From assembly GCF_030253575.1 (NCBI RefSeq), contig NC_080558.1, forward strand, positions 7,450,001 to 7,514,000: 64,000 nucleotides of DNA, written 5' to 3'. Shown here piece after piece: positions 18,049 through 56,874 of this stretch (its first letter is position 1; the number at the start of each line of letters is the position of its first letter). The position numbers and the translations under genes were made by a program. Below the pieces are notes generated by a model. It searched no databases. It saw nothing but the letters and a program-made list of their open reading frames with translations, and was not told the DNA's origin. Origin of the DNA: Rhododendron vialii. Its lineage: Eukaryota; Streptophyta; Magnoliopsida; Ericales; Ericaceae.

Positions 18049-19310
18049 ATGGCTTCAAGCAAGCATTTTGTTGTTTTGCAAGCCCTTTTGATCTCTATCA
18101 TTCTCTTGGGTTTTCAGGTGGCTGTTAGGGAACTGGTCGAGACATCTCACGCTCAAAAATATTGTAAGTTACATAGTTTCGGTTTTCCATAGCAAAAGTC
18201 AATATTCGTAGAATAATTAGGTCAACACATTCTAAGAGTAGTTGAATTCTTGACTCTCTTTCTCCTGGCACTTATGTGCATTCCAAATGGTGTTGCTGGA
18301 GGCCTCTAGGTTTACATAATTTAGGAACCCAAAGTGTTGGCATGTTCGTCTAGGGCCTGAGTTCAGGGATTTTTTTCCCTTTCAGATTTCACTTTCGAAA
18401 TGTTCAGGTGCCATTAATTTTCAATGTGCCAGCTTATAGGAAATTTACGGGGTTTTAAACTAGTCACCCGCTAGTTGACAGGAAAATTGGTGTTTCAGAA
18501 ATTAAGATGGTCCGGACACTCTGAGTAAAAACAAAGAGGTTTATACACATTTTACTAAACCAACAAAGCTATTGCACATGATCTATCCCAACCTAGGCAT
18601 ATTGGTGAATCACACATACCTTGTTGTTTTCCCTTGTGTGATTGTTTTGTGCTGTATATTGTTTTTGCGGATTGATTCATCTGTTCCTTTTTCATACTAC
18701 CTCGCTTGTGGTTCATTTTCATCGATCAATCAAGTTGTGCTTCATTTTTAAGATTAACTTCAATCAACATGGAGAGACTTACGCTTGAATTATTCATCAT
18801 ACAAATTAACGAAAAAGGGAGTCGCAAAAGTATTAGCTGCCAGTTTTTTTTTTTTTTTAATCAGCATTTAGCTGCCAGTTGAATTGTACATTTGTAGATA
18901 TAGTTTTTCAGTCTGCAAGAAAATGAAATGGATTTGCAAATTTAGTTATCTACTGTAATTTGGAATCCGGTGAACATGCAAGGGGGTGAGTTATATGCCC
19001 CGATATACCTTTAAAATGAATAAATAAAAAATCAGATTCGTTGAAAAATAATACTCCAATACTATTTACCACTCATGTTCTCCTAATATTCGAAAATGAC
19101 ATTGTGGAATCCAATTCATATTACAAAAAATAAAAAATAAAAAATACTTGTCCAATTAATTCGTACCATATCCAAGATTGCGTTACCTCATTGATAACTG
19201 ATCAGCCTTTAAATTTACATGGCTATTGTTTGAAAAATACTTACTACTATGTAATTTGTGTAGTTCCAACAGGTAGTCATCATTACAATCCGTGGGGCCA
19301 CAATCCTTGA
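18049..19310 (+). CDS. Secreted peptide precursor A (PWGHNP family), 50 aa
   Basis: Exon 1 is 18,049-18,163 and exon 2 is 19,273-19,310, with a strong GTAAGT donor and a 1.1-kb phase-1 intron. Residues 1-26 form a signal peptide (MASSKHFVV start, long Leu/Ile core, cleavage expected near VAVR). The mature region is only about 24 residues and ends SHHYNPWGHNP before TGA. It lacks the HKM-type segment and the C-terminal RHG seen in paralogues. An alternative acceptor 9 bp upstream keeps the frame and would add three residues. This is the most isolated family member, upstream of the receptor kinase gene. The short exons escape simple ORF finding. Function unknown; a signalling peptide is inferred. 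Confidence 0.75.
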
Positions 19311-20689
19311 TTATATGCTAGCTAGCTGAACATCCACAATCACAAATTCAACCTAATTCCGGAAAAAAAGACGTACATTGGCGTGATGGATGCCCGCGAT
19401 GTCTCGATCGATTGATGTTGGCATTTGAATCTCAATACTACAAGGCACAAAGCTACTATATATACTGTTTTGAATTTTGTTCATCCTCCTACCTATCGGG
19501 TGTGAAAATGTAAAAATAAAAAAAAACTAAGTTAGTTCGTGAATTTGCGAAGCATGGTACTGTAGTACAATTGCACCGTTGTGGTTTGATATATAATTAT
19601 ATACTTGATGTTACTCTATTTAGAAAAACATTAACTTAGGGATGCGGAGGCTCTGCTGTTCATGGGAGGCAGCAGCCCCCTACCCAGCCCTTGAATGATA
19701 GCGTTTTGGGAGGCAGAAGAAACCCTTGTCATTCTTATTTGCAATCCTATGGAGCAGAAATTTAATTACAAAAGTCCTAAAAGTAAAATTTAATTATGTC
19801 ACTTTAGAATAATATGATTAAAATAATAAAATCTTTGCATTGGTTCAAACGGATTCAAAATTGGAGCACTTAATCTTTTTTTTTTCTACATATTTTTTTT
19901 TATAACTATGTGCTTATATTTTGTAATAATAAATCATTTGTAATGTTTTTTTTTATAAATTTTTTTATGAAACTCTTTGTAGATCAACTTTTGAATGAAA
20001 AATATAAAGAAGCCGCATTCAATGAGTTCCCTTCCGGCCTCCAAAACTTATTAGCCGGCACTGCTTGATCAGGAGTCAAGGCAGCGATAGTCAAATATTG
20101 GGTGTGGTGAATGAGGAGTCAGCAATCGGTCTTAGGTCAATTGTGAAGAGTTTCAATTTTGGAGTAATATCGATTGTAATCACACAAGTTAATTATAGTT
20201 TTCGATTTCTCTCGCGATTTTTACCCGTTTTTTAGATTTTCCCTGTATATATATTCATGTGTTCATCATATTACTTTTTTTGTATTTGTGCTTGTCTTTG
20301 GATGGGAGTATCCCATATATAAGAATTTCAGTTATTTTTAGGGTTAGGACACCATATCCTTGAGAGTAAAGTTGTTGTACTTGTAGAGAGAGAGACTTAA
20401 AGGATTTTCTCCATTGAGTCCCGAAGAGTAGGCAGTTGGTGAATCTCGTGTATTTGGGTGTTTTGTTTCTCTCTCTCCCTCCTCTTCTCATTTTTTCTTT
20501 CTTGTGATTCATAGCATCCAAGATTTGAAAGTTTTGTGTGCTGATGAGATTAAGCGCGTAATTTGATTAATATCCCAAAAACTCAAGAAGATACTTTCTT
20601 CCTCTTTATTTTCCCTTTCCTTCCACTTGAAAGAGGAAATAAAAGTGCACCCGGAAAACCAACTTAACCAACAAAACAAACCTTTCGCA
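19311..20689. other. Spacer between peptide gene A and receptor kinase gene
   Basis: The first 150 bp resemble the 3' flank shared by other peptide genes, including a diverged tRNA-like stretch around 19,380-19,440. Around 19,640-20,070 lies an unassigned insertion-like segment rich in T-runs. The last 250 bp before 20,690 should hold the kinase gene promoter. No coding frame is supported. Confidence 0.45.
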
Positions 20690-23600
20690 ATGCCCAGCCT
20701 ATTCATCTATCTTGCTATAGCTCTCTCAGCCGTTTCCGCGGTTTTCCCACCTCACTCCACCGCTCAACCACCACAAAATACCGAAGTCGAAGCGCTTCTC
20801 CGGTGGAAACAAAGCCTACGCAACCAAACAATTGTCGACTCATGGATTTTCAACCAAACAAATGGTAACTCTTCAGCTTCAAGCCCATGCAACTGGCTTG
20901 GAATTTTATGCAATGCTGCAGGAAATGTTACCCGGCTGAACCTTGCCTACACGGGACTACAAGGTACGTACTCTTGACCATTTGGACCTCTCTTTTTTCC
21001 CTCTCCTCTTCCGTCTCGACCTAAAAGTACGTTAACCAACTCAATGGTACCATTCCCACCAACATCGGCTTACTTTCGAACCTCATGTATCTTGATCTCT
21101 CCGCCAACTCTTTCTCAGGAACAATCCCTCTTTCCATCACGAATCTCACTAGGGTTGTCGAGTTGGATTTTTCAGGAAATCCTATAACCAGGTAACTTGA
21201 CCCACGGTTATTCCCTGACCGCGGGTCAAGTCAGGCGAAAACCGGCCTACTTAGCATCCAAAGGCTACTCTTGACAGATACTTTGCTTGGTGGTCCCCTC
21301 CCATCAGAGATGGGTAATTTGGAACATTTGACTCTCTTGGCTCTGGATAACAACAGTTTTTATGGCCCAATTCCTCAGTCTCTGGGTAACTTGAGTAAGA
21401 TAACTTTCCTTCATCTTAACCAAAACCAATTTTCTGGCCAGATTCCTAAGAGTTTCGGCACTCTGACCAAGTTAACCAACTTGAACCTGTTTTCGAACCA
21501 CTTAACCGGTTCAGTGCCAGAAGAAATCGGAAATCTTTCATCGTTGGTAGTTTTTCATTTACTTTCTAACAACTTGAGTGGTCAATTACCTCCACAAGTG
21601 TGTCAAGGCGGAATGCTAGCGAATTTCACCGCGGGGTACAATAATATCACCGGTCCAATTCCGGTAAGCCTCAAAAACTGCACAACCTTATTCAGAGTCC
21701 GGCTCGAACATAACCAACTGACCGGAAATCTTGATCGATATTTCGGAGTGTACCCAAATCTCAATTATATCGATTTGAGCCACAACAATTTACAAGGGAA
21801 AATTTCACCCACATGGGGAGAATGCAGTAGCTTGACACTGCTGAATTTGGGTGGGAATTCTATTGGAGGTGAAATCCCAGTGGAAATTTCCCAATTGAAC
21901 CAACTAGTAGTGCTTGACCTTTCCTCCAACAAGATATCCGGGAAAATTCCGGCACAAGCTGGACAATTGTTGAAATTATCGTCGTTAAACTTGAGTGACA
22001 ACAACATTTTTGGTCAAATACCATTCGAAATCGGGGGACTGTCCAATTTGGCTTCTCTTGATCTCTCAATGAACATGCTAAGCGGACCTATTCCATATCA
22101 AATTGGAGACATGTCAAGATTAATCTTTCTAAGTCTGAGTAAAAACCACTTGAATGGGAGCATTCCATATCAGATTGGCAATCTTGAATCTCTACAAAGT
22201 CTGCTTGATCTTAGTTACAACTCTCTCACTGGAGAGATTTCGCCACATCTAGGGAAGCTGATTATCCTAGAAGCTTTAAACCTCTCCCACAACTCTCTCT
22301 CCGGGTCTATACCGTTTAGAGAAATGATCAGCTTGTCAGCTATCGATTTGTCGTTCAACGAATTGGAGGGTCCTCTGCCTGACTCCAAGGTTTTTATTAC
22401 GTCTCCACCCGAAGCATTTTCTCATAACAAGAATCTATGTGGGGATCCAATCCACGGTTTGACACCATGTAGCCACTCGGCATCCGAGGGTGGTGGAAAT
22501 AAAGGAAACTCGAGGTCGATCATTATTGCGATTTCTACCTCGTCAGGCTCCTTGTTTCTTTTGCTCTTGCTTGTTGGGTTTATCGCGTTTCGTCGAAATA
22601 GTTTCTGGAGAAATCAGAAAGAAGATGTGATCAGGGGAGAGGATATATCTTCAATCCTGAATTTTTCTGGGAAAATTCCGTACGGAGATATCATCCGTGC
22701 TACAGACAATTTTGACGATGAATACTGCATTGGACAGGGCGGATCTGCTAGAGTCTACAAAGTCAACTTACCAAGTGGGCAGGTACTTTTGAAAGTGTTA
22801 CGTCTCCGTATGATTATATATTTTGTGTTTTGGCGCGGTGGTGTAAAGGTTTGTTTATAAAATATAAAAGAAATGTCTTTTTAACTAACAGTGATCATTG
22901 CCAAGGGATCGACAAGAAGTCCGATCCACCCTTTCTGTTGAAGTACCCTGTTTGTTGTGCCCTTTGGATAAAGACTATATGTATTTCTCTCCTAGACGTT
23001 GGGACATGGAGTGATTTTTGGGATAGGATTTTCGATAGCAGCCTTTTCTTCTGTAGGCATTCTCTTCAAAAGTTTGGAGTTGATGCGCAAAATCTTAAAC
23101 TACCTTGCTTGACACCCGTCTGTCATCATTCGTGTAGGGTGTCGGACATTTGTTGAGATTTTCGGATGTTTCTTGGTGTAGTATAAGTTCGTCACAAAGG
23201 GAGTCAACTGATCACCTGAGTTGGATGTAAAAGAACTACTTGTCATGACTCTCATTGAACACATCGACTGTCTTTCTTTAGTTTTATCTTCCTAGTACTA
23301 TTTTGAATCTACTGGTTATTGTGATCTTTGTTGTATTATTAATACTATATTCTACTGCCTAAATCATCTACAGGTAGTAGCAGTCAAGAAGCTATTCATG
23401 AATGAAGATTCAGAGATTGGGGAGATCAAGAGTTTTGCAAATGAGATAGCAACTCTGACAGAAGTAAGACACCGGAACATAGTGAAACTCTATGGCTTCT
23501 GTTTCCATGAAAAGCACACATTTTTGGTTTGCGAGTACATGGAGAGAGGAAGCTTGGCAGATGTTTTGAGGGGAGAGGAAGAAGCCAAGGAGTTGGATTG

Positions 23601-24850
23601 GAGTAAGAGAGTGAACGTAGCTCGAGGGGTGGCTCATGCTTTATCTTACTTGCATCACAACTGCGTGCCACCTATAATTCACCGAGATATATCAAGCAAG
23701 AATGTTTTGTTGAACTCGGAAATGGAGGCCTGTGTCTCAGATTTTGGCACGGCAAGGTTTTTAAAGCCCGATGCTTCAAATTGGTCCGCAGTTGCTGGCA
23801 CATATGGATACATTGCTCCAGGTAACTTGAAATAGTGCTTTGGAAAGTTTCAAAACAGAACTCATGCAATTTACATCTTTCAAAGTACTTAATTTGCTGT
23901 GAAGCCCATTGCGAATTCTGAAGTATGAATTACTATCGTGGTACGTATATAACGAAGTTACCCAAAACAAAAGGGCCAACGCCATGGTATACTTACACCC
24001 TTCGGAAAACAGATTGTATGCCTAGTTATATATGAGCTTTTTTTTGTGGTCTTGTTTTACAACATACTGGTGTTGCTTTTGGCTTGAACGAACGGTTAAA
24101 TGAAATTGGAACCTGTCTATGATCAAATCAAACATGCTCAAACTTGGTTATGAGGCTTTTTCATGCTCTGTTATGAACCGAAGTAGCCTTTTTTTTTATC
24201 AGGCTTTGCATATTGTCTTAGTCACGATTCGAAGTGATTTTGGTTAGAAGATTGATATTCCCCTATCCAGTTCTTCGTCCAAGATAACGTATGCCTCCAT
24301 ATGAATGAACACCTCAGTTTCAGGATATTTGATATCTGGTACATAGCCTTTTCGGTTGCATGACAGCAACTCGACATGTTCAAACAAGTTTAAAATCACT
24401 CAATTTAATATCTGGGGCTGCTGCAAAAAAAGATCATCCTTTATTTTGTTAGCTAGATCTATTTGTGAGTGAGAGAACTAACATGTGGCATTGTTGTGTT
24501 TTTTTCCTTGGGATGACCCAGAATTATCATTCACGATGGCAGTGACTGAAAAATGTGACATGTTGAGCTTTGGTGTTTTGGCACTTGAGATTTTGATGGG
24601 ATCGCATCCGGGGGAATTCAGTTCAAACCTACACTCACCCCTCGACAAGGAACACATACAATTAGCAGACGTCCTGGATCCTCGTCTTCCGCCTCCTACT
24701 AGTCAAAAGTTAAAAGACGGAATGGATTCCATTTTGAATATAGCAATATCGTGCTTACGTGTTGATCCACGTTCTAGACCTACCATGTACGAAGTGTCTC
24801 AGGTGCTTGAGATGAATGCTGGAGGCGGCGGAAAGTGTCCAGATCGTTAG
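20690..24850 (+). pseudogene. MIK2-type LRR receptor-like kinase (LRR-XII), damaged N-terminus
   Basis: Three exons: 20,690-22,782, 23,374-23,821 and 24,522-24,850. The protein has a signal peptide, an LRR N-cap (ALLRWKQSL, CNWLGILC), many LRRs of the GxIPxxxGxL type, and one membrane segment near 22,510-22,590. The kinase domain has VAVKK with the ATP-binding Lys, HRD at 23,680, DFG at 23,740 and APE across the last intron. The P-loop reads GQGGSARVY. Layout and repeats match MDIS1-interacting receptor-like kinase 2 relatives, which sit at the plasma membrane; Arabidopsis MIK2 perceives SCOOP peptides. Lesions: apparent 4-bp insertions near 20,969 and 21,029 and an in-frame TAA at 21,193-21,195. 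A splice of 20,963 to 21,119 would restore phase but not remove the stop. It may be a pseudogene, a damaged allele or an assembly error. Confidence 0.8.
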
Positions 24851-28545: not shown

Positions 28546-30147
28546 TGTTTACACCCATTTTTGGCCAAAAATCAGGGAATGGATTTAAGGGTTAAAAGGT
28601 AGCCTCGAGGGTCGAGGCCCTAGCCTTGAAAGACCTTACGACCAGTTGCCCACGAATTAGGGCTGGTTCTTAAGAAATGATGGGCCTTGCATATAGCCTA
28701 AATCAGTCAAAGGCCTAAGGCTTGAATCAGTCCACCAGGCCTGAGTATTTCGTCTAGGCCTAACCCAAATTCCTAGAAGTAACAAAGGCCTAAGAAATGG
28801 GCCCAAATTGGTAGAAGCCTAGGTTTTCTCACCAGGCGTGGGCTCAGAAGGCTTACATTGGGCAAAGGCCCATGATTTAACAAGAAGTTTAGGCCCAATT
28901 GATGAAAGGCCCACTACTTTAAGAGCATCGTTAAAGCCTTTAAGGAGCAATTAGGGGGCCTTAAGCTGCTCACAAGTAGCTCAAGGCCTTAAGCAGCTCA
29001 CAAGTAGCTCAAAGGCCTTACGCTGCTCACAAGCAGCTCAAAGGCCTTAAGCTGCTTGTGAGCAGCTCAAAGGCCTAGAATATTCCTGATAGGCAGGTCT
29101 GGGTAAGCTGCTCACAAGCAGCTCAAGGTCTGAACTGGTGGGACCCCATTCTTCAGCACGAAGCAAGGCTAGAGACAGGTGGCGCACATGCAGCCCTTGG
29201 AGCTGTTGGTGAATGATTCATGCAGACCTAAGCAAGCTGCTCACAAGCAGCTCATCCAGGTCTGGTTAATCCTTTGTTTCTGGATCCTTCTTCCGTGAAA
29301 GATCAACCTCAGAGGATTTAGAGGGCCCACAAGTATGCAAGGTCCAATAAAATGATAAGAAAGGCCTGGTGAAGTATTGGTCTGCAGTTGTGGTGGGCCC
29401 AAAATGGCCTGGATACTGCAGAAACTGAAATTTTCTTTGCCCTTTTTCAAAATTATATGCAGAAAAGAAGGATTTTTCAGGCCTTTGCCCTTTTCTTAGA
29501 GTAAAAGGCACGTTTTGTTCAGAGAGTAACCCCTCATTGGAGCATTTCGAAGCTGCTCAAGCTCAAGCCTCTGATAGAAGGCCATGTGGCAGCCATGCAT
29601 TGGAGCATTTTGAAGCAGCTCAAGGCCTGTAGCTCCTATAAATCACAGTTCTGAAGACCTTGGCCAAGGTCCACGACCATCAAAGCCCATGGCTTATCCA
29701 AATTTCATTTCATTTATCTTTTAACTATTTTTATCTTTCGGTCCCCGACCAAACAAGCCCATGGCTTATCGTTCAATTAACTTTACTTTCTAGAATAGTT
29801 TGTACTCAATCTAGCCAAGCCTAGATTTTATTTCATTTCCTTGTAATCAGACTTTGTTAAACTGTTAATAAAGTCCATTTATTTCTGTTTTAGGCCTTGC
29901 TCTACCTTTCTGTCCATTTTTCACACGATTAGGAAATTTTAAGTCCTTAGCCCGCAAAGGCAAACCACGAACCTCCTCACGGTCTCCACCCTTAGGCCGT
30001 GCACTTTCGTCCAATTAGAAGTCAGATTAAGGCTTCCAGGCCTTGATACGAATTTGGGCAGCAATCTTGCCCTGGCACGCCCGCATCAGGCCTAGAACTG
30101 CACTACTCGCTGTTCCTAGGCCAATTTTTACTTTTTCGGAACAAACA
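28546..30147 (+). repeat. 5' LTR of the non-autonomous element
   Basis: 1,602 bp, TG...CA ends. The middle part (about 28,960-29,130) is a run of short units built from 'ggccttaagctgctcacaag' and its inverse, giving many local hairpins. About fourteen AGGCCT hexamers by hand count. Confidence 0.9.
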
Positions 30148-30148
30148 T

Positions 30149-30167
30149 TGGCACGCCTGGTGGGACC
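30149..30167 (+). other. Primer binding site of the non-autonomous element
   Basis: TGGCACGCCTGGTGGGACC starts one base after the LTR. TGG matches the CCA end of a tRNA. I have not assigned the tRNA species. Confidence 0.65.
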
Positions 30168-30201
30168 CTAATCGTTTTAAGGGGTATGATCACTCCGATT
30201 C

Positions 30202-31606: not shown

Positions 31607-32389
31607 GTAGAGGAAAGCCCTTCAAGGGCCGAACATGCATCTTTAAGATGTTCGGCCAAGGCCTACCAGTCATTGAGTAGGCCTTATTTTTAAGTTCATA
31701 CCAGGCCTTTTATTTCATTTAAATAGGCCTTTTTGCAAGAAATGAGGCCCTTTAAGCTCTTTCTTTCGGCCTGAGCCACCTTTTTAGGGCTTTCAACGTA
31801 TTTCCAGGCCTTGTTGCGAACCTTTTGTAGGTGTGGAGCTGCTCTGCAACCGGGACTGAAAAGAGGCCTCGTATCGGTGTATAAAGGCCTTTTCCACAAA
31901 GATGAAGGCCCTTTGAGCTCTTTAAGTAGGCCTGAATCGTCATTATAAACACTTTAACTGGAAGTTTAGGCCTTCCAAACATGATTTCAGGCCTGAACGC
32001 ATAGCCTCTATTGGCGTAAACATGGCTAATAAGAGGCAATGAGCCTTAAGATTCAACTCTAGTATAGGCATGATCATCATCCAATTGCTCTAAATAGCCC
32101 TAAAGGATGCAGATTGAGGCCTTCTATCTTTAAGAGAGGCCTTTCACAGGCCTGTCCAACAAAAATATGGTTGGCAGACTCATTCCAAGGTCTGAAGTTA
32201 GAGAATATTGTCAGAGAGGCCTGAAAGCATGTTTGAAAAATGTCTAATGCCTACTAAGTCCAAAGGAAAGGCAATCAAAAGAATACATGCAAAAATAGGA
32301 ATCGAGGCCTGTTTGGATGCCAAAAAATGGTTTTACTTTTTATACATGCCTTGATCCTAAACGTAAAAAATCAAGGCATGGGGGGGCAA

Positions 32390-34712: not shown

Positions 34713-35807
34713 ATGGGTTTTAGTAAGCTTTTTGTTGTTTTGCAAGTGCTTTTGATCTCTATCATTCTCTTGGTTTCTCAGGTGGCTGCTCGGCAACTGG
34801 TCGAGACTTCCAACGCTTTAAATCCTTGTAAGTTTACATAACCCACAAGTTGGCCGATCAGTGATTAAGGTCTAAAACTTAAGATCTTGACCCCTCTTAG
34901 GTTTTACATTTGAAACCTCCAACATTATTTTTTAGTTGGTTTCATCTTCTTTGGAATTATTTTAGTAAATATACATATTATTTTTGAGTTTAAAAATTAC
35001 ACGCAATTTCGTACAACTTTGTGAGACGGAGAGAGTAATATTGATTACGCTATTCACGGTCCATTAGGTTTTCAAAAAGGCAAGAAGAATATTTGAAAAA
35101 AACATTGTTTCCGATGCAATATTTTTACTCCCTCCGTGCCTTATTTAGAGTCCAGTATTCCATTTTAGGTTGTTCCTTAATAAGGGTCCATTTTATGAAG
35201 TTAGTGGGTAAAAGTTGGTGCATTGTTTATTTTGTCCATAAAAGTGATTCCATTTTGAAAAGTTAGTGAATAAAAGTGTAATGATGATGGTAAGTAGGAA
35301 AAGTAGAGGAAAAAGTTGATGTGAAAGGTATAATGATGATGTCTTTTTAATAAGTTGAAGTTACGAAGCAGGATACTTAAAAAAAGACGAAGGGAGTAAC
35401 ATTTTTCAAGGCAAACACATAGAATATTGTTTTTTGTGTGTGTTATTTTCTTATTTTATTGACAGCCCATTGGGTTGCTATTAGCATTTTTTTATTACGA
35501 TGTGCCAAATTTCATGGCAATACCTCGGTGATTAATCAAGCATTTAAATTTACTTATTTTGGATCGGCGAAAGTCAGTTTGTTAAAATAGTTAAATTAAC
35601 ACATGCATGAGAGGAGAAGTTGAATTACTTAACTCCTTTCTCGTAGCAGCACCTCCTGACCTCTGTGAAAAAGCCTTTCAATTACTACGAATATTGTGTG
35701 ACTAAGATTAACATGTAGTTTGTGTTTTCCAATTAACAGACCATAAGATGGACAGAGAGCTGATCACGGGCAATAAACCGGATAATCCATGGCCCCACAA
35801 TCCCTAG
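34713..35807 (+). CDS. Secreted peptide precursor B (PWPHNP variant), 60 aa
   Basis: Exons 34,713-34,827 and 35,740-35,807, phase-1 intron with a GTAAGT donor and AACAG acceptor. The signal peptide is like its paralogues but starts MGFSK rather than MASSK. The mature part reads RQLVETSNALNP across the junction, then an HKMDREL segment and the end KPDNPWPHNP. It is the only copy with Pro instead of Gly after Trp. The stop TAG arises from a one-base shift relative to paralogues that read on into RHG; the DNA after the stop still shows the 'acatggatgat' remnant. A Stowaway MITE lies in the intron. The copy may be active or decaying. Confidence 0.75.
35126..35398. mobile_element. Stowaway MITE in the intron of peptide gene B
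   Basis: Terminal inverted repeats CTCCCTCCGTGCC and its partner ending GAAGGGAG are flanked by TA on both sides (35,126-35,127 and 35,397-35,398). This is the Tc1/mariner-derived Stowaway signature. The element is 269 bp and non-coding. Confidence 0.85.
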
Positions 35808-38080: not shown

Positions 38081-38084
38081 TGGC

Positions 38085-38091
38085 TATAAAA
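38085..38091 (+). promoter_or_regulatory. TATA box of peptide gene C
   Basis: TATAAAA 47 bp before the ATG. The W-box block present before genes B and F is missing here because about 30 bp are deleted. Confidence 0.7.
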
Positions 38092-38131
38092 TGGGTGAAC
38101 CCTAACACCCTTTCCTTATACTGAGAGAAAA

Positions 38132-38749
38132 ATGGCTTCAAGTAAGCTTTTTGTACTTTTGCAAGTCCTTTTGATCTCTATCATTCTCTTGGCTTTTCAG
38201 GTGGCTGCTAGAGAACTGGTCGAGACTTCTAGGGCTCTAAATCCTCGTAAGTTTATATAGTTGAGATGCGTTTAAATCGATCTGGACACCTAGTTATTAA
38301 AAAAGTTAAAAGAAAGTTTACATAGTTAAGAAACTGTCCTGGAGGTAAAACTTAGAATTTTGCTCTCTCTTGCATGGTTTGAAACCTCTGCAGTGACATC
38401 GATTCTTGTGGGGTTAATTAGTCCTCCTGGCTGTATTTGAATTGTAAATTTATAGATGTTTTTCCATAAAATATAAAAAGAAATGGATTCTTATATTTCT
38501 TCATCTACTTTCACTTTGGAATTCAGTGGAGATTACCCTACTACTCTCTAGTTAGTATGCTCGGTGGGTGTATTTCTTTAAGTGTTGGTTTCACCACACT
38601 GAAGTACTTATCAATCACTAATATTTGTTTCCTAAAAAATAAAAATCTGTTCTTCTCTGCCAAAATATTACATGACTGACAAGTATATTTGTGTTGTTCA
38701 AACAGATCAGGCGGACAATCCTTGGGGCCACAACCCTCGACATGGATGA
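38132..38749 (+). CDS. Secreted peptide precursor C (PWGHNPRHG type), 52 aa
   Basis: Exons 38,132-38,246 and 38,706-38,749, intron 459 bp in phase 1. The signal peptide (MASSKLFVLL start, cleavage expected near VAA-R) is followed by RELVETSRALNPHQ and the end ADNPWGHNPRHG. The HKM-type segment found in genes B, D and E is deleted, so exon 2 codes little more than the presumed mature peptide. Relative to gene F, exon 1 differs at 7 of 115 bases by my count. Five of the changes alter the protein, mostly after the signal peptide. Confidence 0.8.
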
Positions 38750-41979: not shown

Positions 41980-42019
41980 TCTGAGACACTGGACCATTCA
42001 ATTACTTGGACGATCGAGT

Positions 42020-42416: not shown

Positions 42417-42419
42417 AAC

Positions 42420-42431
42420 TGGTATCAAAGC
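42420..42431 (+). other. Primer binding site of copia element
   Basis: TGGTATCAAAGC, three bases after the LTR, matches the initiator-Met tRNA site TGGTATCAGAGC typical of copia elements, with one mismatch. Confidence 0.8.
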
Positions 42432-42489
42432 CCTAGGTTTTCGATCTAGGGTTTGTTTCTGGTGATTTTTGCTTTGTTATTGAAGAGCG

Positions 42490-44739
42490 ATGTCTGAAGA
42501 ATCCGGTAAATCTGGTAAAACTCCAAAAGATGGAGAATCCACCAAAACTGAATCGAGTTATCAGCCTGGGGCTTCGAGGCCGATTATGTCGAGTGCGAAG
42601 TTTGATGTGGAAAAATTTGATGGCAAAAATAACTTCGGTATGTGGCAGTGCGAAGTTATGGATGTTCTGATCCAACAGGAGTTGGATTTTACTTTGGAAG
42701 ACAAGCCTGAGGACCTTAATGCAAGGGATTGGGATCGGATCAACCGTCAGGCGTGCGGTTTTATCAGGATGTGTCTTGCCAAAGATCATAAGTATTTTGT
42801 TATGCGGGAAACGAATGCGAAGGTCCTGTGGAAAAAGCTCGAGGACAAGTACATGACCAAGAGCGTGGAGAATCGCCTTTATCTGAAGAAGAAACTCTTC
42901 AGATTTCAGTATCGTTCAGGTATATCAATGACCGAGCACTTGAATGATTATAATAAAATACTTGCTGATTTGTTGAATCTAGATGTTGAAATTCTAGATG
43001 AGGATAAAGCCCTGCTTTTGTTAAATTCCTTGCCCAAAGATTATGATCATCTGTCTACCACTTTAATGTATGGGAAGGATACCATTAAATTTGATGATGT
43101 CCCCAATGCTCTTGTGAACAATGAGTATCGCAAAAGGGATATGCAGGCACATGGAGATTCTGGAGAAGCCTTATCTGTCAGGGGCAGGTCTCAAAATAGG
43201 AAGAATAGCGGTAATCGGGGTCGCTCCAACTCTAAGGGGAGAGGGACCTCAACTTCTGGTAGAGTTGCTAAGGATGAATGCGCCTATTGTTGTGAGAAGG
43301 GCCATTGGAAGAAAGATTGTCCCAAGAAAAAGGGCAAGGATAGTTCCAAGGCCAACATAGTACATTCTGATCAAGATGATGATTCTAATTTTGCTCTGTT
43401 GGGTTCGTCGCTAGTTTGTCAGTCTGATCAATGGATTTTGGATTCCGGCTGTACCTACCATATGTGTCCTAACAAGGATTGGTTTTCCAGCATTGACATG
43501 GTTGATGGTGGAGCAGTGTTTATGGGTAATGATCATGCCTGTAAGACAATCGGGGTAGGGAAGATCAAGCTGAAGCTACATGATGGGTCCGTTCGTATTT
43601 TGTCTGATGTTCGGTATGTACCGGACTTAAAGAAGAATCTGATATCGCTGGGTACTTTAGACTCCACAGGTTACCGGATTACCATTGAAGGTGGAGCTCT
43701 AAAGGTTTCGAAAGGTGCTATGGTTGTGATGAAGGGCATTCGACAGAACAATTTGTATTACCTGCAGGGTATTGCAGTTGTAGGTGGGTTAGCCGCCGTC
43801 TGTAGCAACGTCGGGGAGGATGATTCGGACACTACTAGACTGTGGCACATGCGTTTGGGTCATGCTGGCGAAAAGGCCATGCAAGGCCTGCTGAAGCAGA
43901 ATTTGCTGAAAGGTGCCAAGACCTGCAAGATGGATTTCTGTGAACATTGTGTTCTGGGGAAGCAGACTAGAGTCAAGTTCGGCACTGCTATTCACCAAAC
44001 GAAGGGTACACTTGACTACATTCATTCGGATGTCTGGGGGCCAGCTAGGGTTGCTTCTTTGAGTGGTAAATATTATTTTGTTTCAGTCGTTGATGATTAC
44101 TCTCGCCGTGTTTGGATTTATATCATGAAACATAAAGATGAGGTGCGTGATATTTTCCTTAAGTGGAAAAAGTTGATTGAGACCCAGACAGGTAGACAGG
44201 TCAAGCGCCTCAGATCAGACAATGGGGGAGAGTATCGATCTGATCCTCTCTTCGATATTTGTGAAAAATTTGGTATAGCGCGGCACTTTACGGTGAGAGG
44301 CACACCACAGCAAAATGGTGTGGCAGAGAGGATGAACCGTACTTTACTGGACAAAGTGCGGTGTATGCTATCGACTTCTGGTTTGGGTAGACAGTACTGG
44401 GCTGAAGCAGTGATGTATGCATGTCATTTGGTCAACCGTTTGCCATCTGTTGCACTTGAGGGTAAAACGCCATTGGAGGTATGGTCAGGTAAACCTGCAT
44501 CAGATTATGATTCCTTACATATTTTTGGTTGCCCTGCTTATTATCATGTTAGGGAATCAAAGCTGGATCCTAGAGCCAAGAAGGCATTGTTCTTGGGTTT
44601 TATGGAAGGTGTTAAGGGATACAAGTTGTGGTGTCTCGATTCAAAGAAGGCGATCATTAGCCGTGACGTGACCTTCAATGAATCTGAGATGATCAAGCCG
44701 CCTGTGCAGGTTGTGGGTAATAAAGTTGCTCAGAAATAG
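42490..44739 (+). CDS. Copia gag, protease and integrase part of the polyprotein
   Basis: ATG at 42,490 opens a 749-aa frame. A gag domain with FDGKNNFGMW is followed by a CCHC zinc knuckle (CAYCCEKGHWKKDC), an aspartic protease with the site LDSGCTYHM, a pre-integrase HH segment (LWHMRLGHAG) with CEHC, and the integrase core (HSDVWGP, SDNGGEY, final Glu in QQNGVAERMN). It ends at TAG 44,737-44,739. A second in-frame TAG is at 44,755-44,757, after which the same frame continues into RT. No frameshift is involved, so the two stops alone cut the polyprotein. Confidence 0.92.
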   Translation: MSEESGKSGKTPKDGESTKTESSYQPGASRPIMSSAKFDVEKFDGKNNFGMWQCEVMDVLIQQELDFTLEDKPEDLNARDWDRINRQACGFIRMCLAKDHKYFVMRETNAKVLWKKLEDKYMTKSVENRLYLKKKLFRFQYRSGISMTEHLNDYNKILADLLNLDVEILDEDKALLLLNSLPKDYDHLSTTLMYGKDTIKFDDVPNALVNNEYRKRDMQAHGDSGEALSVRGRSQNRKNSGNRGRSNSKGRGTSTSGRVAKDECAYCCEKGHWKKDCPKKKGKDSSKANIVHSDQDDDSNFALLGSSLVCQSDQWILDSGCTYHMCPNKDWFSSIDMVDGGAVFMGNDHACKTIGVGKIKLKLHDGSVRILSDVRYVPDLKKNLISLGTLDSTGYRITIEGGALKVSKGAMVVMKGIRQNNLYYLQGIAVVGGLAAVCSNVGEDDSDTTRLWHMRLGHAGEKAMQGLLKQNLLKGAKTCKMDFCEHCVLGKQTRVKFGTAIHQTKGTLDYIHSDVWGPARVASLSGKYYFVSVVDDYSRRVWIYIMKHKDEVRDIFLKWKKLIETQTGRQVKRLRSDNGGEYRSDPLFDICEKFGIARHFTVRGTPQQNGVAERMNRTLLDKVRCMLSTSGLGRQYWAEAVMYACHLVNRLPSVALEGKTPLEVWSGKPASDYDSLHIFGCPAYYHVRESKLDPRAKKALFLGFMEGVKGYKLWCLDSKKAIISRDVTFNESEMIKPPVQVVGNKVAQK

Positions 44740-44757
44740 GTGGAGTTAGAGACCTAG

Positions 44758-45680
44758 GTGGTTCCTCAAGATCCGATTCAGTTAGTTGAAGAAGACAGTG
44801 GGGTTGAATCAAATGATAGTGATACGGTTGAGGGTGAAGTTCCAGTACACAGTTCTTCGCAACAGCAGCAGCAGAAAGATTCCATTGCAACATCTCGACC
44901 CAAAAGGGTCATCCGTGTACCCGCAAGGTATGTTGATATGGTTGCCTATGCATTGCCGGTTATAGATGCTGACATCCCGTCCACTTTCAAAGAAGCTATG
45001 GGTAGTCCAGAAACTATGGAGTGGAAGAAAGCAATAGGTGAGGAGATGACTTCTCTTCACAAGAATCAGACATGGGATTTGGTTTCGCTTCCGAAAGGCA
45101 AGAAGGAGATTGGTTGCAAATGGGTCTACACCAAGAAGGAAGAGTCAACAAAGAAGGGTGGTATTCGTTTCAAAGCTAGGCTGGTAGCTAAGGGCTACGC
45201 ACAAAAGGAGGGAATCGACTACAATGAGGTATTTTCTCCTGTTGTGAAGCAAGCTTCAATTCGCATTTTACTAGCTTTGGTAGCTCAGTTTGATTTGGAG
45301 TTGGCTCAATTAGATGTTAAAACTGCATTCCTACATGGTGATTTGGAGGAAGAGATTTATATGTCTCAACCTGATGGTTTTCGTATTGCTGGTAAGGAGA
45401 AGTTGGTTTGTCGATTACATAAGTCTCTCTACGGGTTAAAACAGTCGCCGCGTCAGTGGTATAAACGTTTTGATAGCTTCATGTTGAGTCAGAAATACAC
45501 TCAGAGCCAATTTGATCATTGTGTATATTTCAGAAAGCTTGCGGATAAGTCCTTTATTTATTTGCTTTTATATGTCAATGATATGCTGATCGCATGTAAA
45601 ACATATAAAAGTCAGGTGGAGATAGACAAGTTAAAGATTCAGCTAAGTCGGGAATTCGAGATGAAGGACCTCGGGGAGGC
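44758..45680 (+). pseudogene. Copia reverse transcriptase part, inactive active site
   Basis: In phase with the frame before the stops. It contains CKWVYTKK, ARLVAKGYAQKEG, the LDVKTAFLHGDL motif and the catalytic loop, which reads YVND instead of YVDD: the codon at 45,577-45,579 is AAT where GAT is universal. Loss of this metal-binding Asp should abolish polymerisation. The frame is cut at MKDLGEA by the nested solo LTR. Confidence 0.9.
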
Positions 45681-47262
45681 TGCTTCGTCGGCAACCTAAC
45701 CTCTTAGAAAGGTTCACACCCCAAGCGTAGGGCTAGGTCGTTGATAGCATATAAACCGGAAGACCGGATCGTTCCCACAGAGAAATCTTCTTTAGCGAAT
45801 TTGGAATAGAAGTTGCTTAAAGATTGCGGCGTTCAAGCAGCCAACTTTGGAGTTTGGATTCGATTGACGAAATTAAACTTGGAAATAAACTAGGTTAAGA
45901 TGGTCGAGTCAAAGGGATTGATTTACCCACGACTTAGCCATCAAACGGTTTCTTCATCTAACTCATGAATGAACCGAAACCGTCCGGATCCACTAGACGA
46001 ATTAAAAGCTGAAGACTACTTATAACTTAATTCAAAGCTCTAATTCAAATTGAACTCATTTAACGCAAGTGAGAGACGAAAAAAGATCGTTCGCACGCGT
46101 AGGATTATCAAGCTCGTAGCACAAGGCGATAAACTTCATTGATCAAAGAAACCACCAACCCCATGATCAAAACTAGAAATCATGGGTTTAATTCATTCAA
46201 AACCTTGAGATTAAGCTAAAGTTAAGAGAAACCATTTAATGGACTAATCCATAGGGTGAACCTCACCCCATGACCGAACCGATTAACTACTCACTCATAA
46301 TAAAAAGACTAGAAAACATGCTAAGAAATGAAAACATGATTAACCGATAAAAACGAAAATAAACTTGATTTATAAGAAGATCTAACAAGTAGCTACAACA
46401 TTAATACATGAGAAAACATCAAAACACTTAAACTTACTTGAGTTCTTGAAGATTGAAAGCTTGAAAAGCTATGAACACAACATGAAAATCCTAGAAAGCA
46501 AGAAAAAGACTTAGGCCTAAAAAACTAACTAATGGCCATATCTTCCATAAATGGCATACAAGACTATTTATAGGCCTTACAAAATCAGCCTTACAATGGA
46601 CAAAAAGGCCCCCAAAATATCCCAAAAACATACTAGAAGTAGAAACTTTCCATTTATGGAAGGTTGAAATGTTCAGCAAAAAATGTGCTGGCCGAAGGGC
46701 ATTGGTACCAATACCTAAAAAATGAGGTATTGGTACCAATCCAACTGTCTTCTAATTCGGCATGATGGTACCAATACCTAAAAAATGAGGTATTGGTACC
46801 TCTGTGTGAAAACTGCAGAACAGGGTCAGCTTGGGCCATCATGCCTTGTCGTGCCCCGACGGCCTTCCAATGCTTCATTACATGATCAACGAGACTTGGC
46901 GGAGGTATGCCTAGTGGCCTTGGAGTCTCGGATACCCTCGAGGGCCATCCTCGATGCATATGCCTTGCTTAAACCACTTTGGCACGTTCCTTGCCAACCT
47001 TGACCTCCGGCCAATCTCCGTGGCTTCTTGTGGCACCGTTAGGCTTCGGTGACAATGAAATGAGTACCGGCGGGCATTTGGACACTTGGCTCATCCCGGA
47101 ACGTTTATTGGCGATCAAAACCGCCTTATTAGCACGTTTTACCTGAAATACACAAAAAGGTACCTTACGTGCAATATCGCATAAAAACGACAATATATAT
47201 GTACAAACACAACATACTAAAGGACTTAAGCACCAAGAATATGCATTATTGGGTGCTTATCA
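45681..47262 (-). mobile_element. Solo LTR nested in the copia RT gene
   Basis: 1,582 bp with TG...CA ends, flanked by GAGGC on both sides (45,676-45,680 and 47,263-47,267). Removing it restores the reading phase from DLGEA into CKILGMEI. A minus-strand TATA box (CTATAAATA, 46,565-46,573) suggests that it is a minus-strand LTR starting TGATAAGCACCC at the right. No internal region or second LTR is present, so it is the product of LTR-LTR recombination. It must be younger than the copia insertion. Confidence 0.85.
46704..46800. repeat. Two copies of a 34-bp hairpin in the solo LTR
   Basis: 46,704-46,737 and 46,767-46,800 each read GGTACCAATACC, a spacer of about 10 bases, then GGTATTGGTACC. 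Start-to-start distance is 63 bp. Confidence 0.8.
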
Positions 47263-47267
47263 GAGGC

Positions 47268-48144
47268 ATGTAAGATTTTGGGGATGGAGATTACTCGGGA
47301 TAGGGTGAAGGGCACCGTTCATCTAACTCAGCAGCAATATTTGAAGAAGGTGCTTGAGCGGTTCGGTATAGGTGGTAGCTCAAAACCGGTGAGCGTACCA
47401 CTGGCTCCCCATTATAAGCTTAGTGCTTCGCTATCTCCCACTACAGATGAGGAACGAAAATACATGGCGACCGTTCCTTATGCGAGCTTGGTTGGAAGTC
47501 TGATGTACGCCATGGTCTGCACGAGGCCTGATTTGGCACAGGCCGTCAGTATGGTTAGTTGTTACATGCACGATCCTGGTAAGGTGCATTGGCAAGCGGC
47601 TAAGAGGATTTTGCGGTATGTTCTGGGAACCGTGAATTTGGGTTTGAAGTTCGAGAGGTGCGCATCAGTTTGTGATCTGGTTTCTGGTTTTGTGGACTCG
47701 GATTATGCGGGTGATCTGGATAAGCGTCGTTCAACAACTGGGTATGTGTTTACCATGGCTGGTGGGCCGGTGAGTTGGCGATGTACTTTGCGGTCGACGG
47801 TTGCACTGTCCACTACTAAGGCCGAATATATGGCTGTGACTGAAGCCATAAAGGAGGCGATCTGGTTGCATGGGTTGATGGCTGATTTGGGCATTGGGCA
47901 AGATCACGTTGTCGTTCATTGTGACAGTCAGAGTGCAATTCATCTTGCGAAGAATCAGGTGCATCATGCTCGGACCAAACATATTGATGTTCGCTTTCAC
48001 TTTGTTCGTGAGATCATTGATGAGGGGGATATTCTATTAGAGAAAATTGGTACTGCGGACAATCCGGCTGATATGATGACTAAGGTTGTCACTGGGGTCA
48101 AGTTCCAGCGTTGCGTGGACTTGATCCATATGCAGCAAATCTGA
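47268..48144 (+). pseudogene. Copia RT C-terminus and RNase H part
   Basis: It continues the RT after the nested solo LTR with ILGMEITRD, then PYASLVGSLMYAMVCTRPDL. RNase H motifs follow: VDSDYAGD, KAEYMAVTEA, CDSQSAIHLAKN and the HIDVRFHFVRE end segment. Stop at 48,142-48,144. A purine-rich tract (ccaaggtggagat, ending about 48,285) before the 3' LTR is the likely polypurine tract. Confidence 0.9.
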
Positions 48145-48286
48145 GCACCTTCGGGTGCATGCGCCATAGGGCGCTCTGATGGCAGTCAGAGCACGATTCG
48201 TTTGGGTATTCTGGTTATCTGATTTTCTGGTTGCTGCATGTCTGATTTTTTGGTTCGTAGTCCAATATCTTGCCAAGGTGGAGATT

Positions 48287-48677
48287 TGTAGTTTTTGGCT
48301 CGTTTTGGACGTCTTGGCCTCCGTGGTCCGGTCCAAAGCCTTGGTGGTCCGGACCAGCGTGGACAAGACAGATTAGTATATAAGCATATTTTAGGGTTTT
48401 TTGCTTATAGTATTGCATTCACAGCAGCTTTTCTGCGAGAGGCAAAGAGAGGAACTCTGAGAGATCTCATCTGTAGCCCTTTGAGCATCCGATTACTTCC
48501 GTATAGTGAAACCCTTGATCGTCTGACTGCCCGTGGAGTAGGTATTCATTACCGAACCACGTATATCTCTGTGTTCTCTGTGATTGCTCTTTCTCTCTCT
48601 CTCTTTTCTGTGGTTTGTTCAATTACAAAGCAATTAATCACGTCCGTTTCTGAGTTTGTTAACGCTTCCGCACTACA
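48287..48677 (+). repeat. 3' LTR of copia element
   Basis: 391 bp, TGTAG...CTACA. Differs from the 5' LTR at its fourth base, at three further positions, and by three fewer CT repeats. Confidence 0.9.
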
Positions 48678-50459: not shown

Positions 50460-50807
50460 ATGGCTTCAAGTAAGCTTTTTGTTGTTTTGCAAGTCATTTT
50501 GATCTCTATCATTCTCCTGGCTTTTCAGGTGGCTGCTAGAGAATTGGTTGAGGCTTCTAGCGCTCTAAATCTTTGTAAGTTTACATACTTAAAGATTAGT
50601 TGAGGACCTGAGTTGCAGGTAAAGTGGTTCGGAAACCTGGTTATTAAAGAAAATTTAAATAGTTGGGAATTTTGCTCTCTCTAGTTCGTATGTTCAGTGG
50701 GTATATTTCTTTAAGTTGGTTTCACTACACTGAAGTAATCAATCATAGAGGTGGGTAATGTTCTCGTACCTTTAGAACTAGTGAACAAAATCAGACTCGT
50801 ATTTTAA

Positions 50808-50850
<43 letters not shown>

Positions 50851-51132
50851 TCATATTCTCGTTCCTTACACGACAACTTACGTTCGATTGAATTGATATT
50901 TGTTCTGTAAAAGACTAAAAATCTGTTCTTCTCTACCAAAAATTCACGGCATGAGGCCAAGAGATACGTCATGATTAATCATGACCATTAATTACAAAAT
51001 TACAAAATTACAATCCATAATATTGTGTGACTGGCAAGCATTTGTGTTGTTCAAACAGATCATAAGATGGAGAGGGAACTTGTTAACTCGGATGATCCTT
51101 GGAGCAAGGGCCACAACCCTCGACATGGATGA
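50460..51132 (+). CDS. Secreted peptide precursor D (PWSKGHNPRHG type), 62 aa
   Basis: Exons 50,460-50,574 and 51,059-51,132, phase-1 intron of 484 bp. This is the longest product. After the signal peptide come RELVEASSALNL, then YHKMERELVNSD, then the end DPWSKGHNPRHG. Relative to genes C and F it has two extra residues (Ser-Lys) between Trp and Gly and keeps the HKM segment. The intron holds a pure TA microsatellite. It is flanked on the left by the copia insertion about 1.8 kb upstream, which leaves the near promoter untouched. Confidence 0.8.
50811..50846. repeat. TA microsatellite in the intron of gene D
   Basis: About 18 uninterrupted AT dinucleotides; absent from the introns of the other copies. 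Confidence 0.95.
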
Positions 51133-52640: not shown

Positions 52641-53396
52641 ATGGCTTCAAGTAAGATTGTTGCTGTTTTGCAAGTCCTTTTGATTTCGATCATTCTCTTG
52701 GCTTTACAGGTGGTTGCTAGGGAACTAGTCGAGACTTTCAGCGATCAAAATCATTGTAAGTTTACGTAACTTAGAAACCCGACGTCAAGAAACTCAGAAT
52801 AGGAATTTGTTCCCTTACAATTAAATTTCGCGTTCCAGACCTTCAGGTGCCATTGATTTTTGTGGGGCTAGTTTATAAGGAATTTACCTGATTTTAAACT
52901 GTGGCCACCAATGGTAGATAGTGAAATTGGTCTCCTATGAATTCGTTGAGGTGTCAAAATGTGACTACATTTGATAAAATCCATATTTAAACAAAAAGAA
53001 GAAGAAGAACCGTTCCAGAAACCCAAATAAGTACTGATTTTTTAAGAAGGCAATTTCAAGCTCAAAAATCAGGTGTTTACGCAAATAATTTTCTTAGCAT
53101 TATAGATTTTATTTGATAGATCTCATTGAGATTTTTTAAACGATGAAAAAAAAATCAAAAATTTATTTTTCATTTACATTATTTTTTAGTTTGAAAAATG
53201 TGAAATAAGTTGTTTACTTTTTAAGAAGGTTTCTGGAACATTGGGGTTAATTAGAAAATCCAGGCTTTTAAATAATTAACATGTTGTTCGACCAACATAG
53301 TTACATGTAATTTGGGTTATTCAAGCAGATCATCAGATGAAGAAGTTGAACGTTTCGCCATATGATCACCCATGGTCTAAAGGCCACAATCCTTGA
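52641..53396 (+). CDS. Secreted peptide precursor E (PWSKGHNP type), 60 aa
   Basis: Exons 52,641-52,755 and 53,329-53,396, phase-1 intron. The signal peptide starts MASSKIVAVLQ and ends near VVAR. The mature part is RELVETFSDQNH, then YHQMKKLNVSPYD and the end HPWSKGHNP before TGA. It shares the Ser-Lys insertion with gene D but lacks the RHG tail, like A and B. It is the most diverged copy of the right-hand group. A 228-bp MITE sits in the intron. Confidence 0.78.
53012..53239. mobile_element. MITE in the intron of gene E
   Basis: Perfect 12-bp terminal inverted repeats GTTCCAGAAACC and GGTTTCTGGAAC. Inside lie inverted 'aaataagtact...ttaagaagg' arms like those in the elements at 41,270 and 54,854. 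No clear target duplication. Confidence 0.7.
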
Positions 53397-54840: not shown

Positions 54841-54853
54841 AACCATAAAATTA

Positions 54854-55095
54854 GGCCCCGTTCCGTTTTCTAAAAAAAGTGCTTAAAAAATAATGACCTA
54901 TTTTCAAACATAAAAATAATGAACTTATAAAAATATTTTTTTAATTTTTTTCTAGCAAAGTTTGATAGAACTCATCGAAATCTATCAAATAAGATCCATA
55001 TTGTATTTTTTTTTATTTCAGTAAGCCTAATATTTTAAAACTTGAAAATTGTAAATAAGTACTTATTTTTTAAGTATCCAATCCGGAACGGGGCC
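54854..55095. mobile_element. MITE with GGCCCCGTTCCG ends
   Basis: Perfect 12-bp inverted ends GGCCCCGTTCCG and CGGAACGGGGCC, 242 bp. The right half is also found before gene C at 36,826-36,972 at the same junction, so it was inserted before the C and F blocks separated. Inner arms 'aaataagtacttatttttt' can form a stem. Confidence 0.8.
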
Positions 55096-56210
55096 GCCAT
55101 TGGTTGTCAAGGTCAGCTCATCAAATCGCCACCCCTATGTATATAGTCGTATGGTGGTTGAGGTATTGAGACACTGGACCACTCAATTATTTGGACGATC
55201 GAGTTGATTTCAATACACAAGGACAAGGAAACCCCATAAGTCTTCTCCAGTTTCAAATTTCAATCACGCGTTTTGCTTTGGTTAGATTTGGTATATCCTA
55301 TGCATGGGAAAGTCTACGCCTATGGTTCATTTTCATCCCTCCCCCACTGCACTTAATCTTACTGTTCAAAAGTATTTTGGATGATTTGGAATTTAAAAAT
55401 TCTTTCAGGTAAACTCTTTCCTCTTCTCTCGAAGAATTTTTTAAAAATCTAGACCATTGATTGCTGAGACGAACGGTGAGATTAGAGGAGCGGTAAAAGT
55501 GAGCCGAATCCACGTCCATTCTAGAACTGACACTTGTTGCAGGCAATGGCCCAGTGCTTGGACTTCTCTTCAAATTCGTTTCACTTCCTTCTTTTAAATT
55601 CGGAGGATTGTTCATCTTGTGAACCCAGTAGCCCTAGGGGTTGGCATTACTAGTGAGTCTAGTCCCTCTAAGAGGTTTTTATTCGAAACATTTTAGGTGT
55701 TATCAACTCGTATGAAATTAGTTAAAACGGAGCTTTATTCTAGTTTTGAACAGACCCTGCAAATTGATAGTGTAATGGGTCGCTCAATGATTAGTCGATT
55801 GAGAAGCGCATAATTAGTTTGTCTAGACATTGAGATATACAAATAAAAAAACAATCCTGTAAGCCCACTATAGATACTCTTTAAAAACTTAAATTGATTC
55901 AAAAATCGTTCGCCCATGCCCTAACATCATTCTCGCAGTCCACTTTTTCTCAAGATGAAGCTTTATTTTTAGAGGGTTACGATTATCGAATCAGAGTGAG
56001 ATTTTCAAACGATTACACACTATGGCCGGCAAAATCTACAATTCAGATTTTCGAAATACGATCGGCAAGATAGCTCCACGCAGCATGAATGAGCCCTTCG
56101 TTCCAAATTAAGGTGCATGAGAGAATCCTTTTAAAATAATGTTATATATTTCATGAGTCATGTCCTTAGTTTAACTCTGGCGTTGACCCAAAATGCCAAT
56201 CCTTTCCCTT
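55096..56210. repeat. Upstream block of peptide gene F
   Basis: Near-identical over about 1.1 kb to 36,973-38,080 before gene C, with TGAGTCA at 56,154-56,160. Unlike C, it keeps the W-box block at 56,183-56,188. No gene. Confidence 0.8.
56183..56188 (+). promoter_or_regulatory. W-box upstream of peptide gene F
   Basis: TTGACC in 'ctggcgttgacccaaaa', 82 bp before the ATG and 35 bp before the TATA box. Confidence 0.45.
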
Positions 56211-56217
56211 TTTTGGC

Positions 56218-56224
56218 TATAAAA
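56218..56224 (+). promoter_or_regulatory. TATA box of peptide gene F
   Basis: TATAAAA 47 bp before the ATG within 'ggctataaaaagggtgaa'. Confidence 0.7.
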
Positions 56225-56264
56225 AGGGTGAACCCTAACGTCCCTTCCTTATACTGAGAGAAAA

Positions 56265-56874
56265 ATGGCTTCAAGCAAGCTTTTTGTAGTTTTGCAAGTC
56301 CTTTTGATCTCTATCATTCTCCTGGCTTTTCAGGTGGCTGCTAGAGAACTGATCGAGGCTTTTAGCGCTCTAAATCCTCGTAAGTTTTCATATATAGGTG
56401 CGCGTAAACCGGATACCTAGTTATTAAAAAAGTTAAAAGAAAGTTTACATAGTTAAGAAACTGCCCTGGTGGTAAAACTTAGAATTTTGCTCTCGCTTGG
56501 TTTGAAACCTCCGCAGTGATATCGATTCCCGTAGGGTTAATTAGTCCTCCTAGCTGTATTTGAATCGTAAATTTATAGATGTTTTTCCATACAATATAAA
56601 AAGAAATGGATTCCTATATTTCTTCATCTACTTTCACTTTGGAATTCAGTGGAGATTACCCTACTCTCTAGTTAGTATGCTCAGTGGGTGTATTTCTTTA
56701 AGTTGGTTTCACCACACTGAAGTAATCAATCACTGATATTTGTTTTCTAAAAAAATAAAAATCTGTTCATCTCTGCCAAAATATTGCATGACTGACAAGC
56801 ATGTTTGTGTTGTTCAAACAGATCGTAAGATGGTGGTGGACGATCCTTGGGGCCACAACCCTCGACATGAATGA
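56265..56874 (+). CDS. Secreted peptide precursor F (PWGHNPRHE type), 55 aa
   Basis: Exons 56,265-56,379 and 56,822-56,874, phase-1 intron of 442 bp closely similar to that of gene C. The signal peptide is MASSKLFVVLQVLL-like and ends near VAA-R, followed by RELIEAFSALNP, then HRKMVV and the end DDPWGHNPRHE. The last residue is Glu instead of Gly. It keeps a shortened form of the HKM segment that gene C has lost. With its long shared flanks, F is the closest relative of C. A LINE inserted about 245 bp after the stop may shorten its 3' region. Confidence 0.8.

Follow-up and report, generated by a model that had tools for sequence, protein, structure and literature searches.

The six short genes that share a C-terminal ending in the 64,000-nucleotide stretch of Rhododendron vialii DNA analysed here (the window, C2:7450001-7514000) belong to a much larger array of similar genes, and that array occupies the same interval of contig C2 as a clade of LRR receptor kinases. 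The confinement of both families to one interval is a notable feature of this genome. In the reading that we prefer, the six genes would belong to a large family of secreted peptide precursors that duplicates fast in Rhododendron; in it exon 1 encodes a putative signal peptide, probably cleaved after VAA and before RE, and exon 2 a variable spacer followed by a predicted C-terminal peptide, some 8-14 residues long, built around D-x-P-W-(xx)-G-H-N-P. The tail would be released in the apoplast and may act there as a phytocytokine-like signal bound by the interleaved LRR receptor kinases, with ligand and receptor copies having presumably multiplied and diversified together in one cluster. The peptides are most likely signals and the interleaved kinases the leading candidate receptors; on the fuller claim of a phytocytokine-like family amplified together with its candidate receptors, we are evenly divided.

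Gene structure and extent of the peptide array

As the preliminary description had it, the window contains six plus-strand genes, each with a first exon of 115 nt, a phase-1 intron and a second exon of 38-74 nt (Table 1). Exon 1 ends in phase 1 at a GTAAGT donor in all six, and the conceptual proteins are 50-62 aa long. For genes 1, 2 and 5 a second usable in-frame AG lies upstream of the acceptor given, and the AG within a conserved ACAG/GCAG was preferred. The ending proposed as common to the six was found in every one of them: PW, an optional SK, G or P, then HNP, with RHG or RHE beyond it in three genes. A scan of both strands of the window for this pattern detected no seventh ending. The window genes also have a hydrophobic N-terminal stretch and a VAA/RE cleavage site, both judged by eye, and their layout, in which the middle varies while the signal peptide and the ending are conserved, agrees with the secreted-precursor anatomy that had been suggested. 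At the DNA level, a 219-nt block is repeated in six copies, the other five being 62-89% identical to the reference copy. Together with the in-frame models and TATA boxes found across the cluster, these repeats confirm that the six genes are more than a product of chance.

Table 1. Positions of the peptide-gene exons and of the receptor-kinase gene in the window
Feature	Position	Strand	Remarks
Gene 1 exon 1, signal peptide, 115 nt	18049..18163	+	ATG at 18049
Gene 1 exon 2, 38 nt, ending YNPWGHNP	19273..19310	+	
Gene 2 exon 1, 115 nt	34713..34827	+	ATG at 34713
Gene 2 exon 2, 68 nt, ending DNPWPHNP	35740..35807	+	
Gene 3 exon 1, 115 nt	38132..38246	+	ATG at 38132
Gene 3 exon 2, 44 nt, ending DNPWGHNPRHG	38706..38749	+	
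Gene 4 exon 1, 115 nt	50460..50574	+	ATG at 50460
Gene 4 exon 2, 74 nt, ending DDPWSKGHNPRHG	51059..51132	+	
Gene 5 exon 1, 115 nt	52641..52755	+	ATG at 52641
Gene 5 exon 2, 68 nt, ending DHPWSKGHNP	53329..53396	+	
Gene 6 exon 1, 115 nt	56265..56379	+	ATG at 56265
Gene 6 exon 2, 53 nt, ending DDPWGHNPRHE	56822..56874	+	
MIK2-like LRR receptor-kinase gene	20690..24847	+	Open pieces 20690-20974, 21196-22860, 23296-23835, 24482-24847

The 532,647,506-base assembly (13 contigs) was searched with several queries. A protein query gave 42 matches and an exon 1 DNA query gave 40, all of them on the plus strand of C2:7.40-8.82 Mb. With a diverged R. molle relative as the query, 66 of 67 matches fell in this interval and on this strand, the lone outlier lying on C4 (E 1.36); of the 42 matches to an Actinidia protein, 41 were again in the interval and the remaining one on C13 (E 2.6). 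Hand compilation, with second-exon matches, repeats, two short partial hits and one split piece excluded, yielded 66 first-exon-like places over 1.42 Mb, all on the plus strand, 38 in subfamilies A/B and 28 in subfamily C; six of the 66 are weak (E-values 0.026-0.19), and some are truncated, broken or frameshifted. The array of six described earlier is present, then, but only as a portion of this longer one. From 26 first exons, 28 spliced models could be drawn that are in frame across both exons and encode precursors of 50-66 aa, a set selected for readability and not an unbiased count of intact genes. Of 25 upstream stretches, 20 contain a TATA box 46-51 nt ahead of the ATG. The array probably represents a real and well-defined family of secreted peptides.

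Three first exons on C2 (8062114, 8169479 and 8298847; L004/L043, L007/L045 and L002/L047) each have two candidate second exons downstream that encode different tails and may be alternative terminal exons. At these loci the near exon is fast-evolving between copies and the far exon conserved. Because neither of its two second exons is clean, 8062114 was left out of the 26. At a further locus (L046, C2:8266299), a first exon that is otherwise open has a GC donor (GCAAGT) in place of GT.

Other features of the window concern duplication and mobile elements. The flanks of genes 3 and 6 (36819-38542 and 54935-56665) form a segmental duplication about 18.1 kb apart, with pieces that are 83-98% identical. 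Between genes 3 and 4 lies a Copia-like element (42016-48582) whose 300-nt terminal direct repeats are 98% identical. Another repeat pair, about 3.85 kb apart and 97-100% identical (28546-33129), flanks a 256-aa open frame (30836-31606) and is perhaps a non-autonomous LTR element. The minus strand carries Gypsy-like polyprotein frames at 5029-12572, one of them 1513 aa long, and LINE-like reverse transcriptase and endonuclease frames at 58860-60675.

The C-terminal ending and its relatives

Across the 28 models the core is PW in 22, SW in four and PG in two, with W present in 26; three of the tails that lack the core PW contain a PW further on, within HPWHG; H-x-P occurs in 24, and the strict form PW(xx)(G/P)HNP in 16. 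Subfamily C has a different spacer, and at three of six loci its tails read RRDDPWGHNP, RRDVPWGHNP and RRDKPWGHNP, with two Arg directly before the core; the sequence examined at the other three showed no such tail.

Profile searches recovered three relatives from R. griersonianum, three from R. molle and one from Actinidia. The R. griersonianum protein P0001 has a DNPWPHNP ending identical to that of gene 2, and the Actinidia protein ends in PWGHGYNPPSNP, an altered form. In 14 aligned rows, hand-chosen for diversity and excluding both PG tails, W and the final P never vary, and the D and P before the W reach at least 90%. The ending thus outlasts a divergence that leaves the spacer poorly alignable. 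Loss of the ending in related species with conserved flanks had been named beforehand as one finding that would count against the family; what we observed was its retention in R. molle and R. griersonianum and its persistence, altered, in Actinidia.

The suggestion that such genes escape standard annotation does not hold throughout: no R. vialii member appeared in the protein searches, but the three R. griersonianum and three R. molle members are annotated as hypothetical proteins, and the 63-aa Actinidia chinensis relative (P0127) bears the database name mitogen-activated protein kinase, a label that is evidently wrong. The statement that no named family is known to have this ending agrees with the searches made. 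Pfam contained no family above cut-off for sets of six and four of the proteins, NCBIfam (meant for prokaryotes) gave weak unrelated matches alone, the literature searched did not contain the endings, and Rhododendron was absent from the literature matches listed for peptide-signal terms. The N-terminus of the PF07172 glycine-rich proteins resembles the signal-peptide region, and 6/6 members match it at E up to 1 (best 2.3e-4). Membership in PF07172 was rejected, as member 1 scores 18.9 bits against a cut-off of 30 and there is no glycine-rich region; at most, the two may share an origin of exon 1.

Receptor kinases in the same interval

The receptor-kinase gene of the window (Table 1) had gone unmentioned in the preliminary description. 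A break in its frame between 20975 and 21195 makes it a probable pseudogene. Its central open reading frame has ten relatives at 80-83% identity, all on the minus strand of C2:7.87-8.81 Mb; thus all 11 copies found of the clade (at least 80% identity) lie inside the peptide interval, and the next relatives are at 48%. At least 52 other genome matches at E up to 1e-60 have 36-48% identity, a figure that undercounts far relatives because 81 of 1811 candidates were scored. Seven minus-strand copies were read and have long open frames of 738-902 aa, and two of the three copies near 8365769, 8488053 and 8700706 have shorter ones of 496 and 536 aa. Other tandem clusters of LRR receptor kinases, at 43-48% identity, are located at C2:9.1-11.0 Mb, C7:35.5-35.8 Mb, C11:24.9-25.5 Mb and C13:4.44-4.46 Mb.

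Among the best 120 of 6843 matches, relatives in other plants are often named MIK2-like and come from Vaccinium (76-80% identity), Camellia (59-62%) and legumes (about 56%). In a FastTree tree the Vaccinium copies group together inside the Rhododendron set, two R. vialii lineages pair with R. molle or R. griersonianum copies (support 0.99 and 0.81), and one R. molle copy falls outside (node support 0.16).

Ectodomain variation among the paralogs was counted without L055, which the LRR pattern used did not match, and without the three copies near the positions given above. On the concave strands 37 of 90 positions vary, compared with 60 of 411 in the rest of the LRR domain (p 9e-8); when the register was shifted by as much as 12 in either direction, the concave count never exceeded 28. 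Omega for the ectodomain exon is 0.21-0.57 (15 pairs, 6 sequences). In four pairs it is 0.44-0.67 on the concave face, never shown above 1, versus 0.14-0.35 elsewhere, and a fifth pair has seven nonsynonymous changes and no synonymous change on that face. This variation would fit diversified ligand binding and, since concave-face omega stays below 1, would also fit relaxed constraint. One LRR strand carries R-x-R or K-x-R (SLRRVRLEYN and variants), which may resemble a motif through which other receptor kinases bind the C-termini of peptides.

Peptide and receptor genes are interspersed in one cluster, a feature of poplar-type clusters. Read from locus tags, the two are also neighbours in R. 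molle, where peptides Rhmol02G0064600, 65100 and 65400 lie among receptors 64800, 65000 and 65500, and in R. griersonianum, where peptides 003820, 3822 and 3834 surround receptor 3824. Inside the R. vialii cluster, receptors are no nearer to peptides than random cluster points are (median 7.2 versus 7.4 kb, P 0.56), which does not support a tight association of individual receptors with individual peptides. A block some 110-150 kb long, comprising a receptor and much the same kinds of peptide, recurs about four times (receptors near 8.10, 8.21, 8.37 and 8.49 Mb), and because such blocks repeat, the joint expansion is explicable by segmental duplication alone. The peptides might then be secreted signals whose receptors lie elsewhere, the kinase clade being a passenger of shared segmental duplications. 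Random spacing and repeated blocks agree with this account, as does the unlinked state of PEPR/Pep pairs in Arabidopsis (PMC3975113, in excerpt). We nonetheless consider it less likely, given that two unrelated families occupy one interval and have neighbouring locus tags in R. molle and R. griersonianum as well, and that receptor variation is concentrated on the ligand face. That the peptides are ligands of the co-clustered receptors, as the preferred reading has it, appears plausible without being probable.

Precedents, constraint and competing explanations

Phytocytokine and receptor genes reportedly cluster in poplar and willow, a finding attributed to Lintz 2024. Such clustering in poplar and willow is described in excerpts of a 2026 review (PMC13157962), and poplar LRR-RLP clusters are interspersed with small orphan genes that include RISP (PMC3975113, in excerpt). 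The poplar RISP/LRR-RLP clusters may be taken as the closest precedent: in both plants, small and apparently lineage-restricted genes for secreted proteins are found among tandem LRR receptor genes, some of them co-duplicated. The poplar partners are LRR receptor proteins without a kinase, whereas those in Rhododendron are receptor kinases. RISP has 60 mature residues and four cysteines and is cationic (PMC4756128 and PMC3975113, in excerpt), whereas the Rhododendron family is far larger and has a short fixed ending. Membership in RISP was rejected, as one Cys follows the signal peptide in three of the 28 models and none in 25, and the receptor type differs.

RISP, which in poplar is likewise encoded in a cluster, has an inhibitory effect on a rust fungus (PMC4756128, in excerpt), and the Rhododendron peptide array is large and fast-evolving; both points suit a role for the tails as apoplastic antimicrobial or defence peptides that act directly on microbes and have no plant receptor. 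Such a role seems improbable, however, for tails that are short, nearly Cys-free and furnished with Asp/Glu, and the fixed PW...HNP ending would fit recognition better than membrane attack.

By kind of receptor, the closest system would be SCOOP/MIK2. The cluster receptors carry MIK2-like names, and among their best PDB matches MIK2 comes second, after 5hyx; SCOOPs, like the Rhododendron peptides, form a large multi-gene family of putatively secreted precursors with a short C-terminal motif (PMC11331138, in excerpt). SCOOPs and MIK2 are reported in the same excerpt as confined to Brassicales, and membership in SCOOP was rejected, the SxS motif being present in just 2 of 28 models. In the best alignment, the two aligned parts are separated by 48 residues in the receptor and by 134 in the MIK2 chain, making the receptor about 85 residues shorter there; MIK2 chain residues 160-293 lack an aligned receptor counterpart, in a chain numbering that may differ from that of the paper. 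The MIK2 SxS pockets are given as D246/N268 and S292/H294/H316 (PMC11331138, in excerpt).

The weak side of the case for the peptide family is that its exons evolve about as fast as its introns. In 11 pairs of readable genes, with two genes used twice, substitutions number 54/1268 in exon 1 (4.3%), 39/679 in exon 2 (5.7%) and 342/7532 in introns (4.5%). Over 13 disjoint pairs, dN/dS is 0.60 for exon 1 (p 0.015) and 0.88 for exon 2, the latter not different from neutral (p 0.80). None of eight exon indels breaks the frame, compared with 34 of 46 indels in introns (p 1e-4), a preservation that is partly built in because the genes were picked as readable. The second exons of 8170300 and 8299714 differ at 14 of 68 sites, and their intron at 18 of 706 (p 6e-8); this pair was picked afterwards from the 11, and the result survives correction for 11. 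Either a short conversion tract or diversifying selection could lie behind its acceleration. Overall, the family gives no support for positive selection, with exon 2 near neutral and one of 11 exon pairs accelerated. A collection of mostly decaying or non-functional copies, in which a signal-peptide exon and a leftover short exon were carried along by cluster expansion, would account for the similar exon and intron rates, the near-neutral exon 2, the truncated or frameshifted copies and the broken window receptor, but is hard to credit beside 28 readable models, exon indels that keep the frame (biased as these are to readable genes), TATA boxes before most of the genes and an ending kept across subfamilies and in Actinidia.

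Co-amplification of phytocytokine-like peptides with their candidate receptors is favoured by the gene anatomy, the confinement to 1.42 Mb, the kept ending, the TATA boxes, the exon frame, the locus-tag neighbours, the concave-face variation and the accelerated exon pair, and weakened by the near-neutral exon 2, the random spacing, omega below 1, the 6 of 28 models without core PW and the broken window receptor. If it is correct, two Ericales genera possess an unnamed plant peptide family whose candidate receptors are named by position, and Rhododendron has a kinase-bearing counterpart of the poplar clusters that keeps ligand and receptor genes together. Direct tests become feasible, pitting an 8-14-residue peptide against a handful of open receptor genes.

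A more distant likeness involves soybean GmPep914 and GmPep890, C-terminal octapeptides of the form D-x-P-R-G-G-N-Y from 52-aa precursors that are said to have no obvious signal peptide (PMC7730307, PMC6547358 and PMC4621407, all in excerpt). Four of eight positions (D, P, G and N) agree with DDPWGHNP, and do so only in insertion-free tails; membership was rejected, as DxPRGGNY occurs in 0/28 models. No legume protein was matched at E up to 10, though both soybean octapeptides were rows of the profile query, and in view of this and of the soybean precursors' want of an obvious signal peptide the likeness may be chance. It would be a long shot to see the Rhododendron tails as representing, within the Ericales, an ancient octapeptide family, D-x-P-(W/R)-G-(H/G)-N-(P/Y), to which GmPep914/890 also belong, with the MIK2-like clade, which has the legume relatives noted above, as its missing receptor and with ligand and receptor co-expanded in a Rhododendron megacluster. 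The receptor of GmPep914 is described as not yet known in excerpts of the 2026 review (PMC13157962), and the clade would, were this proposal true, offer a concrete candidate for it.
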